A DNA stretch of 43,143 nucleotides from an uncultured Lachnospiraceae bacterium (GTDB lineage: Bacteria; Bacillota; Clostridia; Lachnospirales; Lachnospiraceae): assembly GCA_902781215.1 (NCBI GenBank), contig CACZIO010000022.1, forward strand, positions 1 through 43,143, written 5' to 3'. Shown here one piece after another: positions 1,006 through 36,332 of this stretch. Made by a program: the position numbers and the translations under genes. The notes beneath the pieces were generated by a model, which saw only the letters and a program-made list of their open reading frames with translations, had not been told where the DNA came from and made no database searches. Each line of letters starts with the position of its first letter. Position 1 is the first letter of the stretch.

Positions 1006-1839
1006 TTACACCGTATGAACAGTCTGCACGACAATGCAGCCGGGGCCTCCGTGCGTGATCAGGGAGGGGGCGAGCTGCAGGATCTCCGTCTGTGTCTCCG
1101 GGAAGCTCTCGCGGATCTGTTTCACGACACGGCAGGCCAGGTCCCGGTCCTCCGCGTAGGCGACCGTGATGAGGTATCTGCTGTCCACGCCGATGGATTT
1201 GAGACTGGAGATGATGGTGGCAACCGCCGTCTTCCAGGTCCTGCGGATGGTCATGAAGGAGATCCGCTTATGGTCCTCGGACTGGGTCAGGACAGGCAGC
1301 AGGTGGAGAGCGCCGCCAATCATGGAAGTCATGTTGTTGATCCTGCCGCTTTTTTTCAGATAATTAAAATCAGCGGGAATGACAAAGGAGACATTGGAGC
1401 TGGCACAGGAGCGGATCCTGTCCAGGATTTCCTTCGGGGATATTCCCTCGTCTCGAAGCTGGGCTGCGCGAACCGCCATATAGCGGAGCGGACCGGCCAG
1501 AGACCGGGAGTTGATGATATGGATATGCTCTTTCCTGTCAAGGCTGTTGCGGACGCCCATGGCGGTCATGTATTCGCCGGAGAGGCCGTCCGCGACCGTG
1601 AGCATGAGGGTATCTTCTTCCGTATTTTCAAAGGCGGACATGATGTCTCCGACAGAGGGCTGGGAAGAGACGGGCATTTCATCCCCGTGCAGCAGCTCGA
1701 CGAATTTGTCCGGTGTGATGTCGATATAGTCGCGCATAGAATTGGAACCGAGGGAGACGGAGACGGGCAGGACTGTGATCCCAAGACGTTCTCCGTCACT
1801 CTGCGTCAGTGAAGAAGCTGTATTCGTGATGATTTTCAT
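1006..1839 (-). CDS. DegV family fatty-acid-binding protein
   Basis: DegV proteins bind a fatty acid and, as FakB, present it to a fatty acid kinase for phosphorylation, feeding acyl-phosphate to PlsX/PlsY. The 277-residue product starts MKIITNTASSLT and has the usual two-lobe pattern, with a SSQPSVGDIMSAFE stretch (S/T-Q-P motif) near residue 55 and a LTVADGLSGEY segment that corresponds to the family's S-x-L-SGTY motif. The ATG at 1839 is preceded by an AGAGGAAA ribosome binding site; the longer frame to 2064 has no good site. Lying directly upstream of plsY is fitting, since both act on acyl-phosphate flow. Which fatty acid it prefers cannot be read from the sequence. Confidence 0.9.
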   Translation of the reverse strand: MKIITNTASSLTQSDGERLGITVLPVSVSLGSNSMRDYIDITPDKFVELLHGDEMPVSSQPSVGDIMSAFENTEEDTLMLTVADGLSGEYMTAMGVRNSLDRKEHIHIINSRSLAGPLRYMAVRAAQLRDEGISPKEILDRIRSCASSNVSFVIPADFNYLKKSGRINNMTSMIGGALHLLPVLTQSEDHKRISFMTIRRTWKTAVATIISSLKSIGVDSRYLITVAYAEDRDLACRVVKQIRESFPETQTEILQLAPSLITHGGPGCIVVQTVHTV

Positions 1840-5551: not shown

Positions 5552-5756
5552 CATCACGTGATGTCAACGAGGAATCGCCTTCGCGAATTTCTCGGACAAA
5601 TGCTTTGCATTTGTTGACGATTGCCTGCGCAATTACATGCTCCGGCACAGGCAGCTGTGATCGCACCGGAAAAATCCGTTCCGGTCCTTCTCCTCGTGTT
5701 TCTCAGCGCAGGAGCGCTTCGACATGTTCGGAAAGGAGAAAAGATGGGCGGGCCAA
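5552..5756. repeat. Intergenic multi-hairpin array, locus 1 (upstream of udk)
   Basis: The 423-base gap before udk is filled with short inverted repeats in a row. They are CATCACGTGATG (5552-5563), CGAGGAATCGC/GCGAATTTCTCG (5568-5594), ACAAATGC-TTT-GCATTTGT (5596-5614), ATTGC/GCAAT (5620-5633), CACAG/CTGTG (5646-5659), ACCGGAA/TTCCGGT (5665-5685) and AGCGC-AGGA-GCGCT (5705-5718). The right part, from TGATCGCACCGG to CGCTTCGACATGT, is nearly the same as 36197-36264. The array ends in AAAGGAG followed by an ATG (5744) that opens only an 11-codon frame. It is one of four related arrays in the window. Confidence 0.75.
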
Positions 5757-6629: not shown

Positions 6630-8741
6630 ATGAAAAAGTGCACCAGAAGGGCGCTGATTGCCCTGAGCCTGTGCCTTATGCTCCTGCTTCCGGCCTGCCG
6701 GTTTGTCAGACCGGGTGAGCTGACGGGAGGCAGCGGCGCGGGCGGCGCAAGCGGCGCGGCTTCATCCATCGATCTGGCGATCCAGAACGTGGATGGAACC
6801 GGATGGAAGATCGCCATGATCACGGATACGGGCGGCATCAACGACCAGTCCTTTAACCAGAGCGCATGGGAGGGACTGCAGGAGCTGCGCGATGATACCG
6901 GCGCAGAGGTCGCCTATATCGAATCCAAACAGAGCGGTGATTTTAACACGAACTTTGAGACCCTGATCGACAATGGCAACAGCATGTGCTGGGGCATCGG
7001 CTTTGCCTGCGCGGATGCTGTCCTGGAAGCTGCAGCAGTTAATCCGGATGTGAGCTTTGCCTGTGTCGACAATGCCTTTGCGGATACGCCTGCCAATGTG
7101 ACCGGCGTCGTCTTCCGGGCGGAGGAATCCTCCTTCATGGTCGGCTATATCGCCGGTGCCATGTCCGAGACCGGCAAGGTCGGTTTTGTCGGCGGCATCA
7201 AGAGCGAGGTCATCGAGCAGTTCCAGTTCGGCTATGAGGCCGGCGTGGCCTATGCCAACAGGATCCTGGACAAAAACGTCGTTGTCACGTCCCAGTACGC
7301 GGAGAGTTTCTCCGACGCGGCCAAGGGCAAGAGTATCGCCAACAAGATGTTCACCGACGGCTGTGATATTGTCTATCACGCGGCCGGCGGAACCGGAACG
7401 GGCGTCATCGAGGCGGCGAAGGAAGCCGGAAAATACGCGATCGGCGTTGACCGCGACCAGGCTTACCTGGCACCGGACAATGTCCTGACCTCGTCCCTCA
7501 AGAACGTCAACGTCGCCGTCAATGCAGTCTCCAAGCGTCATATCGCAGGCCTTGAAATCGGCGGCCAGACGCTTTCCTTCGGTCTGTCCGACGGCGCGGT
7601 CGGTATCCCCGAGGATCACCACAACTATCCGGACGCTGTCTATGAGGCGGCCCTTGAGTGCGGCGAGAAGATCAAGGCCGGCATCATCGCGCCTCCCGCT
7701 ACGGCGGATGACCTGGCTGCCTTCAAGGAAACGATCGCCAATACGCCTGTCGAGGAGCTCATGAAGAAGGCCAATGATTTCTCGGATGTAGACGGCACCG
7801 GCGCGAAGATCGCCATGATCACGGATACGGGCGGCATCAATGACCAGTCCTTCAACCAGAGTGCATGGGAGGGCCTGCAGACGCTCCGTGATGATACCGG
7901 CGCAGAGGTCGCCTATATCGAGTCCAAGCAGAGCGGCGATTATACGACCAATCTCGCGACCATCATCGACAACGGCAATACCCTCTGCTGGGCCATCGGC
8001 TATGCCTGTGCGGACGCTGTTCTTGAAGCAGCGGCTGCCAACCCGGATGTCAACTTTGCCTGTGTCGACAATGCCTTCGGAGATGTGCCTGCCAATGTGA
8101 CCGGCGTCGTATTCCGGGCCCAGGAGTCCTCCTTTATGGTCGGTTATATCGCGGCAGCCGTTTCCAAGACCGAAAAAGTCGGCTTTGTCGGCGGTATCTC
8201 AAGCGAAGTCATCGAACAGTTCCAGTACGGTTATGAGGGCGGTGTGGCCTATGCCAACAAGCAGCTGGGCAAGAACGTCCAGGTCGTCTCCCAGTACGCG
8301 GAGAGCTTCTCGGATGCGGCCAAGGGCAAGAGTATCGCCAACAAGATGTTCACAGACGGCTGTGACATCGTCTATCACGCGGCGGGCGGCACCGGAACCG
8401 GCGTCATTGAGGCCGCAAAGGAATCCGGTAAGTTTGCGATCGGCGTCGACCGCGACCAGGCTTACCTGGCACCGGAAAACGTCCTGACATCGTCCCTCAA
8501 GAACGTCAATGTCGCGGTTGACCTTGTTTCACGCCAGCACATCGCGGGCCGCGAAGTCGGCGGCAAGAACATGGGGTTCGGCCTCGTGGACGATGCAGTC
8601 GGCATCCCCGAACACCACGAGAACTACTCGGACGAGATCTACAATGCCGCGATCGAGATCGGCGAGCAGATCAAGAGGGGGACCATTGTCCCGCCCGTTT
8701 CCAAGGCGGAGCTCGAGGAATACAAGGCATCCCTGCAGTGA
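6630..8741 (+). CDS. Tandem-duplicated BMP family lipoprotein (nucleoside-binding protein)
   Basis: Predicted substrate-binding lipoprotein of the adjoining ABC importer. The N-terminus has a lipoprotein signal (KKCTRRA, hydrophobic core, LLPAC with the lipid-modified Cys at about residue 24). It then carries two complete BMP/PnrA-type domains in one 703-residue chain, about twice the usual 330-370. IAMITDTGGINDQSFNQSAW occurs at residue 61 and again at 394, a period of exactly 999 bases. Both copies keep the nucleoside-contact features seen in PnrA-like proteins (NDQSFNQ, YHAAGGTGTG, GVDRDQ). Domain 1 ends about residue 375 and a short linker ending FSDVDGTGAK leads to domain 2. A GGAGGG site precedes the ATG. 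Relatives bind purine nucleosides; that is inferred here from context. Confidence 0.93.
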   Translation: MKKCTRRALIALSLCLMLLLPACRFVRPGELTGGSGAGGASGAASSIDLAIQNVDGTGWKIAMITDTGGINDQSFNQSAWEGLQELRDDTGAEVAYIESKQSGDFNTNFETLIDNGNSMCWGIGFACADAVLEAAAVNPDVSFACVDNAFADTPANVTGVVFRAEESSFMVGYIAGAMSETGKVGFVGGIKSEVIEQFQFGYEAGVAYANRILDKNVVVTSQYAESFSDAAKGKSIANKMFTDGCDIVYHAAGGTGTGVIEAAKEAGKYAIGVDRDQAYLAPDNVLTSSLKNVNVAVNAVSKRHIAGLEIGGQTLSFGLSDGAVGIPEDHHNYPDAVYEAALECGEKIKAGIIAPPATADDLAAFKETIANTPVEELMKKANDFSDVDGTGAKIAMITDTGGINDQSFNQSAWEGLQTLRDDTGAEVAYIESKQSGDYTTNLATIIDNGNTLCWAIGYACADAVLEAAAANPDVNFACVDNAFGDVPANVTGVVFRAQESSFMVGYIAAAVSKTEKVGFVGGISSEVIEQFQYGYEGGVAYANKQLGKNVQVVSQYAESFSDAAKGKSIANKMFTDGCDIVYHAAGGTGTGVIEAAKESGKFAIGVDRDQAYLAPENVLTSSLKNVNVAVDLVSRQHIAGREVGGKNMGFGLVDDAVGIPEHHENYSDEIYNAAIEIGEQIKRGTIVPPVSKAELEEYKASLQ

Positions 8742-8749
8742 TAGGTGGA

Positions 8750-9046
8750 CTGCCGCACAAAGTGCGGCAGAAATGGAGTAATCAACAGAAAACACGCTGA
8801 TGCGCTGTTTTCTGTTGATGGAAGGTTCGCACAAGGTGCGAACCTTCCCGGATCCCATCAGAGAAATTGCCTTCGCAATTTCTCTTCGGGTTCTGAAACG
8901 CATTGCGTTTCAGAAAGGAGGCAGCATACATAAAACACGCTGATGCGCTGTTTTATGTATGCCACAGCCCGCGCGGCGGGCTGTGAAGATCCCATCGGAG
9001 AAACCCTGCGGGATTTCTCCTCGGGCTGCCGCACAAAGTGCGGCAG
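8750..9046. repeat. Intergenic multi-hairpin array, locus 2 (inside the importer operon)
   Basis: Nine hairpins follow each other with almost no spacing. H1 8750-8770, H2 8781-8819, H3 8820-8848, H4 8861-8884, H5 8892-8914, H6 8924-8962, H7 8963-8985, H8 8997-9020, H9 9026-9046. They form two copies of a four-hairpin unit of about 140 bases (H1-H4, H5-H8) plus the first hairpin of a third copy (H9). H2 and H6 have the same 11-base apical sequence CGCTGATGCGC and the same AAAACA/TGTTTT top, but different, still perfectly paired lower stems (ATCAACAG and GCATACAT). H1 and H9 are identical (CTGCCGCAC-AAA-GTGCGGCAG). H1, H5 and H9 are each followed by AGAAA(T)GGAG, which before the ATPase gene is its ribosome binding site. 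Lying between the lipoprotein and ATPase genes, it could set their relative expression. Confidence 0.9.
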
Positions 9047-9058
9047 AAAGGAGAAGAT

Positions 9059-11101
9059 ATGTCAGCTGAAGTCAGCAGTAAATATGCTGTACAGATGCAT
9101 GGAATCACCAAGAGGTTTGGTGCCTTCTATGCGCTGACCGACGTTGATCTCGACGTGGAGCGGGGAACGATCCATTCGATCCTCGGCGAGAACGGCGCCG
9201 GCAAGAGTACACTGATGAACGTCCTGTACGGTCTGTATCAGGCGGACGAGGGCGAGATCTATATCAACGGCAAAAAGGTCAATATCAAAAATCCGACGGC
9301 CGCGATCGAAAACGGCATCGGCATGGTGCACCAGCACTTTATGCTGGTGGAGAATTTCACGGTCACGCAGAACATAATCCTGGGTTCCGAGCCCAGGTCT
9401 GCAGGGATCGGCGTCAACATGCGCAAGGCCCGACAGAATGTCCGCGAGATCGTCGAGAAGTACGGACTCGAGGTCGAGCCGGATGCCAAGATCCGGGATA
9501 TTTCGGTCGGTATGCAGCAGCGCGTTGAGATCCTCAAGGCTCTCTATCGCGGCGCCGAGATCCTGATCTTGGATGAGCCGACGGCAGTCCTGACGGAGCA
9601 GGAGATCGATGAGCTGCTCGCGATCATGAAGAACCTGATCGCCGACGGCAAGACCATCATCATCATCACCCACAAGCTCAAGGAGATCCAGGCTTCCTCA
9701 GATGTCTGCACGATCATCCGCCGCGGCAAATACATCGATACGGTCCCGGTCAAGGGTGTCACGGAGGATGACCTGGCGACCATGATGGTCGGCCATGCCG
9801 TCCAGCTGGTCGTGGACAAGACGCCTGCCAAACCGCAGGATGTCGTCCTGGATATCCAGAACCTCTATGTCAAGAACGAGCAGGGCATCAACGCTGTCAA
9901 GGATTTCAATCTGCAGGTGCGGGGCGGCGAGATCGTCGGCATCGCCGGCATCGACGGCAACGGCCAGCAGGAGCTCATGGAGGCGGTCAACAACCTCAAA
10001 AAGTGCAAGGGCAAGATCATTCTCTGCGGAGAGGAGATCCAGAACAAAAATCCCAAGTACGGCATCGACCGCGGTATGGCGACCATTCCGGCGGACCGCC
10101 ACAAGGACGGCCTGGTCCTGGGCTTTTCCGTCTATGAAAATGCCATCATGGAGAAATACCGCACGGATGAGTTCTCTCCCGGCGGGCGGATCGACCGAAA
10201 AAAGATGCGGTCCTTTGCGGAGGAGCTGATCAAGGCCTACGACGTGCGTCCGGAGGACTGCGGTCCCAAGCTGGCCGGCGGCCTGTCCGGCGGCAACCAG
10301 CAGAAGGTCATCATCGGCCGTGAGATCGCCCAGGAGCCCAAACTCCTGATCGCCATCCAGCCCACCCGCGGCCTGGACGTCGGCGCGATCGAGAATGTGC
10401 ACAAAATGCTGATCCGGGAGCGCGACAAGGGCGTCGCCGTCCTGCTCATCTCCTTCGAGCTGGATGAGGTCATGAATGTTTCCGACCGCATCGCGGTCAT
10501 CTATGACGGACATATTCAGCAGATCTTCCCCCACGGAACGGTTGACAACCGCACCCTCGGCCGCGTGATGGCCGGCGGCAAGGTGGAGGAGTCCGAGCTG
10601 AAGGAGATCCAGGAGCAGCAGGAGGCAGCGGCAGCTGAATCTGCGGCTCCGGCGGAAACTGAGAAGGAAGCTGCTGAAGCGGCAGAGCCTGCGGCTCCTG
10701 TGGAAGCTGAGAAGGAAGCAGCGGCAGCGGAACCTGCGGCTCCTGTGGAAACTGAGAAGGAAGCTGCCGAGGCGGCAGAGCCCGAGGCTCCTGTGGAAGC
10801 CGAGACGGAGACTGAGGCAGCAGAAGCTGCAGCACCGGTGGAAGCTGAGACAAAAGCTCCTGCGGCGGACGATGCAGAGGCAGTGGTTCCGGCTGAAACA
10901 GTGACAAAAGCCTCTGTGGCAGAAGATGCCGCTCCGGCACTGATTCCCGCGGAGGATCTTGCGGAAGAGGCGGCGGATAAGATGCCGACGGCGGCAGAGT
11001 TCGCACAGCTGAAGCGCGACTACGCGCAGATGCAGCAGACCCTGGCGGGGCTGCAGGAACAGATGGCAGAGCTGCAGAAGCGTCTGGCTGACATGCAGTG
11101 A
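9059..11101 (+). CDS. ABC transporter ATP-binding protein, two ATPase domains plus long C-terminal tail
   Basis: Energy-coupling subunit of a BMP-type nucleoside importer (NupA/YufO-like). The first ATPase domain has Walker A GENGAGKST (about residues 43-51), signature ISVGMQQR and Walker B ILILDEPTAVL. The second has GIAGIDGNGQQE in place of a standard Walker A, signature LSGGNQQK and LLIAIQPTRGLDVG; a degenerate second site is usual in this family. The conserved part ends near residue 514, a normal full length. A further 165 residues follow: an Ala/Glu/Pro-rich stretch with repeats of about 45-48 bases (AAPVEAEKEAA-like) and a last 35 residues with a coiled-coil heptad pattern. The ATG at 9059 uses AAAGGAG, which directly follows the last hairpin of the upstream array. 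Confidence 0.93.
   Translation: MSAEVSSKYAVQMHGITKRFGAFYALTDVDLDVERGTIHSILGENGAGKSTLMNVLYGLYQADEGEIYINGKKVNIKNPTAAIENGIGMVHQHFMLVENFTVTQNIILGSEPRSAGIGVNMRKARQNVREIVEKYGLEVEPDAKIRDISVGMQQRVEILKALYRGAEILILDEPTAVLTEQEIDELLAIMKNLIADGKTIIIITHKLKEIQASSDVCTIIRRGKYIDTVPVKGVTEDDLATMMVGHAVQLVVDKTPAKPQDVVLDIQNLYVKNEQGINAVKDFNLQVRGGEIVGIAGIDGNGQQELMEAVNNLKKCKGKIILCGEEIQNKNPKYGIDRGMATIPADRHKDGLVLGFSVYENAIMEKYRTDEFSPGGRIDRKKMRSFAEELIKAYDVRPEDCGPKLAGGLSGGNQQKVIIGREIAQEPKLLIAIQPTRGLDVGAIENVHKMLIRERDKGVAVLLISFELDEVMNVSDRIAVIYDGHIQQIFPHGTVDNRTLGRVMAGGKVEESELKEIQEQQEAAAAESAAPAETEKEAAEAAEPAAPVEAEKEAAAAEPAAPVETEKEAAEAAEPEAPVEAETETEAAEAAAPVEAETKAPAADDAEAVVPAETVTKASVAEDAAPALIPAEDLAEEAADKMPTAAEFAQLKRDYAQMQQTLAGLQEQMAELQKRLADMQ
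10641..10870 (+). repeat. In-frame imperfect repeats encoding the ATPase tail
   Basis: Units beginning GCGGCTCC(T/G)GYGGAA recur at about 10641, 10691, 10736 and 10784, at spacings of roughly 45-50 bases. They encode AAP-E-EKEAAEAAEP-like peptides. The unit length is always a multiple of three or nearly so and the frame stays open, consistent with slippage-driven growth under coding constraint. Confidence 0.7.
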
Positions 11102-30890: not shown

Positions 30891-31484
30891 ATGAATGGAA
30901 ACAATCAGGAGAGACAGGGCATGAATCAGAACGTGCAGGAATCCGGCATATCGGCCAAAAAGCTCAGCATTATTGCACTGGCCATTGCCCTGAACGTCGT
31001 GGGGGGACAGATTGCCCTGCTCCTGCACCTGCCGGTCTATCTGGACAGTATCGGGACGATCCTGATCGCGGTGATCTACGGGCCTTTTTACGGGATCCTG
31101 CCTCCGCTCCTGTACGGAATGGTGATGGGCTTTACGCTTGATATCTACTCACTGTATTTCATGCCGGTCGGGATCATTCTCGGCCTCACGACCGGTATTG
31201 TTTCGCGCGCTCTCAATCTGCGGGGCAGGTTGATCGTTCCGGGTGCCCTGATCATCACCATCCCGGGGACCATCACCAGCGCCCTGATCACGGCCCTTCT
31301 GTTCGGAGGCATCACTTCCTCCGGCTCCACCGTGATCGTCCAGATCCTCAACAAGGCAGGAATGGGGCTGACCGCCAGCGTCTTTGTCGTGCAGATCCTG
31401 ACGGACTATCTTGACCGCCTGATCTCTCTGGCCCTGGTGGCAGCGCTCCTGAGGGCGATCCCCGCCCGGCTCTACAAAGAGTGA
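30891..31484 (+). CDS. ECF transporter S component
   Basis: Integral membrane substrate-binding subunit of an energy-coupling-factor importer that would use a shared EcfAAT module encoded elsewhere. The 197-residue protein has about six hydrophobic helices after a polar start, and begins KKLSIIALAIALNVVGGQIALLLHLPVYLDSIGTILIAVIYGP in three parts typical of S components. Its substrate is not given by the sequence; the neighbouring nucleoside hydrolase suggests a nucleoside or base. The ATG at 30891 follows GGAGG by 8 bases. The stop codon lies inside the first arm of a hairpin array. Confidence 0.8.
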   Translation: MNGNNQERQGMNQNVQESGISAKKLSIIALAIALNVVGGQIALLLHLPVYLDSIGTILIAVIYGPFYGILPPLLYGMVMGFTLDIYSLYFMPVGIILGLTTGIVSRALNLRGRLIVPGALIITIPGTITSALITALLFGGITSSGSTVIVQILNKAGMGLTASVFVVQILTDYLDRLISLALVAALLRAIPARLYKE

Positions 31485-31700
31485 AAAAAACGCTCGATAG
31501 CGTTTTTTCACTCTTAGAGCTTTGTGCCGCGAGACGGCCCAAAGCTCTGCAGATCCTTCAGAGAAATCGCCTTCGCGAATTTCTCTTCAGGCTGCCGCTC
31601 TTACGAGCGGCATGGTCGGAAAGAGTGAAAAATCTTGTCGATACAAGATTTTTCACTCCGGTGCCTGTGCTGCGGACCCCGGACCGGACAGACATGCAGA
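31479..31700. repeat. Intergenic multi-hairpin array, locus 3
   Basis: Five hairpins follow in a row. (1) AGAGTGAAAAAA(A)CGCT-CGAT-AGCGTTTTTTCACTCT, 31479-31514, which includes the stop of the ECF gene. (2) AGAGCTTTG...CAAAGCTCT at 31517-31548. (3) GAGAAATCGC-CTTC-GCGAATTTCTC, 31561-31585. (4) GCCGCTC-TTAC-GAGCGGC, about 31593-31610. (5) AGTGAAAAATCTTGT-CGAT-ACAAGATTTTTCACT, 31624-31657. Hairpins 1 and 5 share the CGAT loop and the AGTGAAAAA foot but differ in the middle of the stem, where pairing is kept. Hairpin 3 with its flanks (GATCC-TTCA, CTTCAGG) equals the fourth module of locus 2. The tail CCGGTGCCTGTG matches locus 4. Confidence 0.85.
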
Positions 31701-31730
31701 GTATTTTGAAGAGGAGGTCATTGCAGGGGT

Positions 31731-35796: not shown

Positions 35797-36130
35797 TGTA
35801 AGTACCTCCTGTTTTTTCTCTGTTTTTCATTTGCCCCGGAACCGCAGCGCAGTAGAATGACCTGACGGATCTGTCTGCGGCTTCGCCTTGTCCGGGGACT
35901 GTCCGTCAGCCTCCGGAGGACAGTCAAACTGTCCAGAAGTTATTATATAGCAGACGGACGCGGAATGCTACAAAGACTTGTTGAAGAGAAGCAAAAGAAA
36001 ATAGTCCCTTTTGACAAGTTCGCGCCATCAGGAGGGGGAACGGCATGGAACTGAACCATTTCTCAACCGTTTCCACGGTCTGATTTACGCAAAACCGCAT
36101 GTAGAGCCGTCGATATTTTGATATAATAAG
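35797..36130. other. Intergenic region HIT / hairpin array 4
   Basis: No gene. A small hairpin GACTGTCC...GGACAGTC lies at about 35898-35928. Near the right end TGATATAAT (36119-36127) is an extended -10 box pointing to the plus strand, about seven bases before the start of hairpin array 4. Confidence 0.5.
36119..36127 (+). promoter_or_regulatory. Extended -10 promoter element before array 4
   Basis: TG-A-TATAAT is a perfect extended -10 motif. Transcription would begin around 36133, inside the foot of the first array hairpin (36131), making the array the 5' leader of the SH3-protein mRNA. No good -35 box is seen, which extended -10 promoters often lack. Confidence 0.5.
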
Positions 36131-36265
36131 AGTGAAAAAAATGCTCGATAGCATTTTTTTCACTCCGGTGCCTGTGCCGCGGGCCCAGGCACCTGTGATC
36201 GCATCGGAGAAACCCGTCCCGGGCTTTCTCCTCGCGTGTCTCAGCGCAGGAGCGCTTCGACATGT
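36131..36265. repeat. Intergenic multi-hairpin array, locus 4
   Basis: AGTGAAAAAAATGCT-CGAT-AGCATTTTTTTCACT (36131-36164, 15-bp stem) is followed by GGTGCCTG...CAGGCACC (about 36167-36193), TGATCGCATC, GGAGAAACCC...GGGCTTTCTCC (about 36206-36231) and AGCGC-AGGA-GCGCT (about 36243-36256). The first two modules match the end of locus 3, and the last three match the end of locus 1 and module 4 of locus 2. The array forms the leader of the next gene. Confidence 0.85.
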
Positions 36266-36332
36266 ATGTAAAAGTGTAATACAGCCATATTTAAAGGGCG
36301 TTCTGCCTGCAGTTTTTTCGGGAGGTGTATTG

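Follow-up and report, generated by a model that had tools for sequence, protein, structure and literature searches.

REP, BIME and REPIN sequences, which go with RAYT (Y1) transposases, are palindromes dispersed through intergenic DNA. The element described here resembles them in being palindromic, dispersed and intergenic; it differs in having four hairpins and a Shine-Dalgarno sequence (SD), and in occurring in genomes that carry 20 to 37 matches to its third hairpin (SL3) and no Y1_Tnp domain. Riboswitches and other 5'-leader RNAs offer a second point of comparison. Like them, the unit has a covarying fold beside an SD and a candidate alternative pairing with that SD, but it goes with no fixed class of genes (ten tested), its sites are species-specific and it has no match in Rfam.

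MITEs, in the definition quoted in the part of PMC3049150 considered here, are like the unit in being small, hairpin-rich and flanked by short direct repeats; those of the unit are imperfect and more similar than in 500 of 500 shuffles. It differs from MITEs in lacking terminal inverted repeats, and no parent insertion sequence was identified for it. BOX elements of Streptococcus pneumoniae, as the same excerpt describes them, have terminal inverted repeats and are over-represented between convergent genes (PMC3049150). They share with the unit a short, modular, intergenic build, a structured transcript, many copies, a variable number of modules, proposed mobility and the formation of reading frames, a likeness of architecture only and judged by description, whereas the unit has no terminal inverted repeats and lies preferentially in sense before start codons. 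In Beggiatoaceae, TAACTGA repeats, for which a role in translation has been suggested, lie like the unit in forward orientation directly before the start codons of unrelated genes; in the excerpted account they consist of 7 nt alone, are predicted to form little structure and mostly lack an SD, in contrast to a 140-nt fold that brings its SD (PMC4679880). As far as these excerpts describe them, neither BOX elements nor TAACTGA repeats combine a multi-hairpin fold, the absence of terminal repeats and an own SD at start codons (PMC3049150, PMC4679880). We regard the unit as a new family within the small dispersed structured repeats; our searches of open-access literature and of Rfam returned no description of it.

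Results

The array between the BMP lipoprotein and ATPase genes

The window is the whole stretch of 43,143 nucleotides that was analysed, and positions refer to it. All nine hairpins that the first-pass annotation had placed at 8750-9046 were recovered there, and they resolve into a 5'-truncated remnant followed by two tandem full units. The region 8742-9060 folds at -179.1 kcal/mol, compared with -99.8 ± 4.23 kcal/mol for shuffled sequences (z -18.75; none of 100 shuffles equalled it). The centroid fold keeps the nine hairpins separate. At minimum energy the first SL4 instead pairs, over the length of the array, with the last, whose sequence is identical. Each unit is composed of SL1 (a long stem with a YGAU loop), SL2, SL3 (a 3-bp GC outer helix, an imperfect junction and then a hairpin) and SL4 or a pairing tail, after which comes a Shine-Dalgarno sequence.

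The array lies on the plus strand. Its remnant, unit 0, retains the SL4 hairpin (8750-8770) and, immediately left of unit 1, the closing SD-like AAATGGAG (8771-8778, read from the letters); the 27-nt block 8747-8773 occurs again at 9023-9049 with 96% identity. Unit 1 (8782-8924; 106.8 bits with the whole-unit covariance model, R2) is a full copy with four hairpins and an SD. It has SL1 at 8781-8819, with an apical loop of the YGAU tetraloop class inside CGCTGATGCG, SL2 at 8820-8848, SL3 inside 8851-8890 (57.9 bits with the SL3 model, R1), with an outer CCC/GGG helix and an ATC/TC internal loop, SL4 at 8891-8915 and the closing SD-like AAAGGAGG at 8914-8921. Unit 2 (8925-9059; 90.8 bits with R2), also full, is the gene-proximal copy. 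Its SL1 (8924-8962) has the loop of unit 1 and different stem letters, and is followed by SL2 (8963-8985), SL3 with an outer CCC/GGG helix (inside 8988-9025; 58.2 bits with R1), SL4 (9026-9046) and AAAGGAG (9047-9053), the SD of the ATPase gene, whose ATG stands at 9059 and whose product matches Pfam ABC_tran. Loops and spacers previously reported as common to the copies have the letters quoted. The word AGAAA(T)GGAG, one of those spacers, is common to the copies as claimed, but it is the SD-like closing sequence of each unit rather than a spacer; units of the array end in AAATGGAG, AAAGGAGG or AAAGGAG.

Elsewhere in the window, also on the plus strand, are a full unit of the CGC/GCG type at 36130-36271 (118.9 bits), another full unit at 31479-31626 (109.2 bits) with a partial one in tandem at 31623-31720 (44.9 bits), and a degenerate unit at 5590-5733 (44.5 bits). 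At gathering scores Rfam matched only a TPP riboswitch (RF00059, 21401-21510, minus strand, 61.3 bits) and 16S rRNA in the window, where the start of the 16S gene is found at the contig end (43050-43143, plus strand), and only SRP RNA in eight unit loci. Within the array there were nine sub-threshold matches, the lowest E being 0.19, and models of group II intron RNA gave no match at gathering scores in the window or the eight loci. The statement that no named family has this layout agrees with the absence of an Rfam match to the array. As side observations on the flanking genes, translation of the BMP-type lipoprotein ORF (6630-8741, plus strand, 703 aa) shows by eye two similar tandem halves in one chain, and the ATPase ORF (9059-11101, plus strand) has a long repetitive Ala/Glu-rich C-terminal tail (EAAEAAEPAAPVEAE...).

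The fold covaries among copies

From 98 full units, 53 were non-redundant and 46 were aligned (alignment A2), with L057, L149, L058, L152, L167 (twice) and L077 left out by eye for unclear ends or divergence. Changes on both sides were seen at 37 of the 48 pairs of A2, and 83.9% of its cells were paired, against 69.6% after shuffling and at most 53.3% after sliding. Because kinship among copies can mislead counts of pair changes, we applied a phylogeny-aware null, a test of our own that is similar to R-scape (it is not R-scape itself); for every branch of the tree, it places the substitutions anew at columns drawn at random. Under a strict threshold, the same for all pairs, 9 of 39 nested pairs passed with 46 sequences and 12 of 45 with 177 sequences, compared with none of 10,248 and none of 10,243 other pairs, respectively; the structure tested on the 177 sequences was the fold of a single unit, L209. 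Under a loose threshold, with a multiplicity equal to the number of structure pairs, 12 of 39 and 20 of 45 nested pairs passed, and outside the structure 14 of 10,248 and 10 of 10,243, near chance expectation. Some pairs of an SL4 stem that is absent from the tested structure (columns 167-202, 169-200 and 170-199) also passed the loose threshold; this stem has one strand in common with the pseudoknot described below. Covariation of the stems, which the first-pass annotation had read from the copies of the array, therefore exceeds a phylogenetic null in this R-scape-like test. One locus, L201, which is the same as L314, is counted twice in the 177-sequence covariation set and in the sets used below for tail parsing, reading frames, terminal repeats and SD openness.

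Among 141 matches, the SL3 outer helix reads CGC/GCG in 46, GGC/GCC in 43 and CCC/GGG in 38 (127 of 141 in total). It is complementary in 136 of 141, duplicates included, a proportion biased upward because the search model scores the outer helix. Where outer helix and stem meet, the genus of the window has an ATC/TC internal loop and other genera have a bulged A. SL1 could be parsed in 111 of the 141 units and carries the loop YYGATR in 93 of them; a bulged C in its stem is kept in one group of subfamilies. Pairing between the SL2 loop and the tail is stronger than in shuffled sequences (-11.1 compared with -9.2 ± 0.32 over 53 units; reached in 0 of 200 shuffles), and in A2 both partners change at 6 of its 9 pairs. 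Against the phylogenetic null, 0 of 9 of these pairs passed with 46 sequences and 0 of 8 with 177, and for this reason the data suggest, at most, a pseudoknot between SL2 loop and tail.

Copies are dispersed in Lachnospiraceae genomes

With blastn, the array matched its own genome at scattered places. R1, built from 20 copies of SL3, detected 39 matches there at E ≤ 1, and R2, built from 46 sequences, at least 86 at E ≤ 0.01 and at least 57 at E < 1e-10, when 150 of 1250 candidates were scored; in a few cases R2 also matched one palindromic unit on its opposite strand. Within the genus, 29 of 61 genomes had R1 matches, the own genome included, as did 14 of 299 genomes of a family draw. The covariance-model search of Lachnospiraceae that had been proposed as a check returned dispersed matches: R2 detected the unit in 51 of 397 genomes and 45 of 334 genera, with a best E below 1e-10 in 47 of the 51 (above it in G063, G076, G307 and G385), and the sequence was read for part of these 51. 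Per-genome counts from R2 saturate, since 8 candidates were scored per genome in the family and class searches. A class draw of 391 genomes gave six with matches, four of Lachnospiraceae and two outside the family at 27.3 and 23.3 bits. Inspection of the weak matches found no recognisable unit in L284 (G531, outside the family) or L283 (G794, Lachnospiraceae); L285 (G639) was set aside as too short.

The exact SL3 motif was found in 51 stretches of public genomes, with titles naming Lachnospiraceae, Eubacteriales or Clostridiales assemblies, and had 0 matches in viral contigs. Other genera show the same layout, namely SL1 (for example GTGTGAAAAATCACAC-TGAT-GTGCTGATTTTTCACAC), SL2, GATGGC-SL3-GCC, the tail CGCTCCGG, AATGGAGG and ATG. 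Near-identical copies lie at many unrelated loci within genomes. An origin from phage or plasmid was rejected, as the window array had no match in phage records and a unit of G358 none in plasmids. Partial matches of 73-79% to the G358 unit occur in the unannotated gut 'Bacteriophage sp.' records MT836788.1, MT837007.1 and MT838414.1.

Units tend to precede start codons and are flanked by repeats that include the SD

Placement was scored with open frames of at least 80 codons, and 5 of the 141 units were set aside as too short. In other genera a sense start codon with an SD lay within 110 nt downstream of 39 of 48 units (divergent control, 2 of 48), and in 38 of these 39 the start codon stood 30-37 nt after SL3. 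In the own genus this was so for 49 of 88 units (divergent control, 6 of 88), and 39 of the 88 copies lay away from any start codon with an SD. When any start codon was accepted, sense and divergent counts were 41 and 3 of 48 in other genera and 62 and 40 of 88 in the own genus, so that the sense contrast in the own genus depends on the SD. Ten genes behind units, chosen by us, belong to unrelated Pfam families. We observed by eye that a unit lies between spoIIAB-like and sigma-F-like genes in two sister species (L227 and L294), and that a CbiK-like gene of the own genome may have its start codon within the closing ATGGTCGGAAAA of a unit (L036, about 1460-1480, minus strand).

On the left side, an SD-like word flanks 99 of 116 units, as a raw count, and TA is preferred directly before the unit. 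The two flanks of a unit are more alike than shuffled pairs in two sets (7.57 compared with 5.85 ± 0.29, n = 37; 6.33 compared with 5.14 ± 0.21, n = 61) and also with shuffling within genomes (5.58 compared with 4.33 ± 0.17, n = 106), the real value being reached in 0 of 500 shuffles each time. The direct repeats are short and imperfect, include the SD of the gene and have letters specific to the locus, as in GAGGCATA, AACGGAGAATA and GGAATGGAGAGTA. Such repeats would be expected from target-site duplication at the SD, of about 8-13 nt by eye, a length that is unsure because the repeats are imperfect and part of the SD may be the element's own.

Sites occupied in one species are empty in others

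The gap between the BMP lipoprotein and ATPase genes could be read in 11 close relatives (a twelfth has a contig that begins at the ATG, and relatives with an ATPase identity of 62% or less were left out). R2 detected no unit in 11 of these 11. In G014, G052, G011 and G008, TAA and ATG are separated by a short gap that contains one SD, for example AAATAAAGGGAGGTAAATATGG; G018 has one SL3-like hairpin, of which R2 recognised just a 31-nt fragment at E 0.0048. Since the 11 readable relatives have no unit there, we take the window array to be an insertion and not a regulator of the BMP transporter. The suggestion that the element sets the ratio of binding protein to transporter, and any reading as a locus-specific regulator of BMP transport, was given up on the basis of these empty sites and of the ten chosen genes behind units, which are unrelated.

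The rplI gene of this species has two tandem units upstream, and 28 of 29 relatives compared have no unit in that leader. Arrays similar to that of the window, which the first-pass reading called for in related genomes, do occur: the rplI leader of G040 (L129, 1116-1498) has three tandem unit matches that by eye mix subfamilies, and the array looks as if it had been built by serial insertion. In G031, a genome outside the 29, an SL3 match ends 34 nt before rplI. In G052, rplI is preceded by three copies of another direct repeat, about 37 nt long (GAGCGCTTTGATCCGGAGACAGA...; L119, upstream of 1501). G072 and G358, which are sister species, have copies of the unit in common before gatC and three other genes. 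Between the two species these four copies differ at 9 of 556 positions and their flanks at 67 of 1609 (Fisher p 0.0046); constraint, recent insertion or gene conversion would each account for this slow divergence.

Terminal repeats and candidate movers

Terminal inverted repeats are absent: the 5' end compared with the reverse complement of the 3' end scored 3.33 in 143 units and 3.33 ± 0.06 after shuffling. Of 61 genomes of the genus, 43 encode the Y1 transposase domain PF01797 (Y1_Tnp), the own one among them. It is not supported as the mover, being absent in G031, G038 and G040 despite 37, 20 and 22 R1 matches; these assemblies are drafts of 80-96% completeness. Reverse transcriptase (PF00078) is found in G031 and G038 and only below the cut-off in the own genome. 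It is not supported as the mover either, being absent in the element-rich G014, G040 and G055, likewise drafts; it may act from elsewhere. Target-primed reverse transcription was considered for the 5'-truncated copies. Among those viewed by eye an SD-like word stands at the truncated end in L218 only, which makes later deletion an equally likely origin of the truncation.

Predicted accessibility of the SD

The SD has a predicted openness of 0.251 in the presence of the unit, compared with 0.543 in a modelled empty site (94 loci). Shuffled leaders likewise gave 0.251 (130 of 143 units parsed), and the proposal that the unit is an insulating leader that frees the SD was rejected on this equality. 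Blocking the SD-adjacent strand in silico raised openness from 0.251 to 0.391, and blocking another stretch gave 0.275 (105 units). A complement of the SD lies directly upstream of it, in the form CTCC...GGAG in most parsed tails (106 of 119 units parsed) and CTCA...TGAG in 13 of the 106, with the register set by eye; covariation of strand and SD may rest on one subfamily. Promoter and intrinsic terminator were rejected as functions, as there was no promoter and one terminator-like site, on the minus strand, compared with 0.5 ± 0.8 in shuffled sequence.

Discussion

We observed dispersed copies, presence and absence between species, sense placement, flank repeats that contain the SD and compensatory changes; no event of transposition itself was observed. 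The array of the window probably consists of two units and the remnant of a dispersed and likely mobile element of the Lachnospiraceae, and our best reading of the unit is a new family of structured 5'-leader elements that occur dispersed at ribosome-binding sites and are probably mobile. One option raised in the first-pass annotation, a mobile or recombining structured repeat, has thus gained support from the dispersed copies and the empty sites in relatives. In the mechanism we propose, a new copy would insert in the spacer between the SD and the start codon of a gene. Insertion would duplicate the SD site, so that the gene would retain a ribosome-binding site. Arrays would grow by repeated gene-proximal insertion as upstream copies decay. 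The fold would be retained because RNA or folded single-stranded DNA is needed for propagation, and perhaps also because the unit tunes translation of the gene behind it.

The sense placement, together with a covarying fold in the 5' leader, could also be explained by a cis-regulatory RNA (a riboswitch, thermosensor or protein-binding leader) that has its own regulon, spread by duplication and controls translation of the next gene. In a possible mechanism, CGCTCCGG, the 3' strand, would alternate between pairing with the SL2 loop and pairing with the SD next to it. The complement of the SD directly upstream, the effect of blocking this strand in silico and the excess of SL2-loop/tail pairing over shuffles agree with a cis-regulatory role, as does the lower divergence of the four copies common to G072 and G358 than of their flanks. 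We nevertheless regard this account as rather unlikely, because insertion sites vary between close species, with no unit at orthologous sites, and the ten downstream genes define no class; moreover, the pseudoknot fails the phylogenetic null, shuffled leaders give the same SD openness, and the CTCA/TGAG change may have arisen once and been passed on within one subfamily. A combined reading is doubtful and somewhat less probable. It is a mobile class of RNA leaders, found across the family, that would land on ribosome-binding sites, copy them and give every gene so entered a new and switchable start region for translation, in which the SD-adjacent strand would pair with the SL2 loop (open) or with the SD (shut).

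Correction of imperfect inverted repeats by template switching at replication would make the covariation mutational, with no RNA selected, and it would account for SL1 and SL2 being near-perfect palindromes whose letters vary among copies and for the strongest covarying pairs lying mostly in the hairpins SL1 and SL3. We think it improbable, since the SL3 outer helix flips among CGC/GCG, GGC/GCC and CCC/GGG yet its junction remains imperfect, the conserved SL1 loop is non-palindromic, and the bulged C of SL1 persists in one subfamily group. That the leader is translated, GTG AAA AAT ... opening a short frame of some 48 codons with coupling to the gene behind it, would fit the 74 of 177 units that have a start codon in the first 9 nt and then 40 or more open codons. 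It would also fit the difference among frames, one of which stays open over 40 codons or more in 89 of 177 units, compared with 19 and 37 for the others. However, 28 of 177 have no start codon and in 75 of 177 the frame closes earlier, and some copies in G121 have changed GTGTGA to GTGTAA together with the opposite arm, so that pairing is kept and the start lost. With the frame open in under half of the units, coding is not the conserved feature, and we rejected this very improbable reading. Even slightly less credit goes to an ancestral leader with non-mobile local duplication and many losses; the copies before gatC and three other genes common to the sisters G072 and G358 would suit it, but near-identical copies at many unrelated loci within genomes, the absence from all 11 readable relatives at the window locus and the mixture of subfamilies in the G040 rplI array speak against it.

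If the preferred reading of a dispersed, probably mobile leader element is correct, many genera of a dominant gut and rumen family carry a mobile element between the ribosome-binding site and the start codon of their genes, with the site retained. This would be a new mode for a repeat to coexist with coding DNA and a possible source of ready-made translational control, and it raises the question of what inserts DNA at Shine-Dalgarno sites. It would also call for caution in annotation, as the 74 of 177 units with an open frame could be called as spurious small proteins. Should the doubtful proposal of a mobile and switchable leader hold as well, its spread would rewire the translation of housekeeping genes in many gut bacteria.
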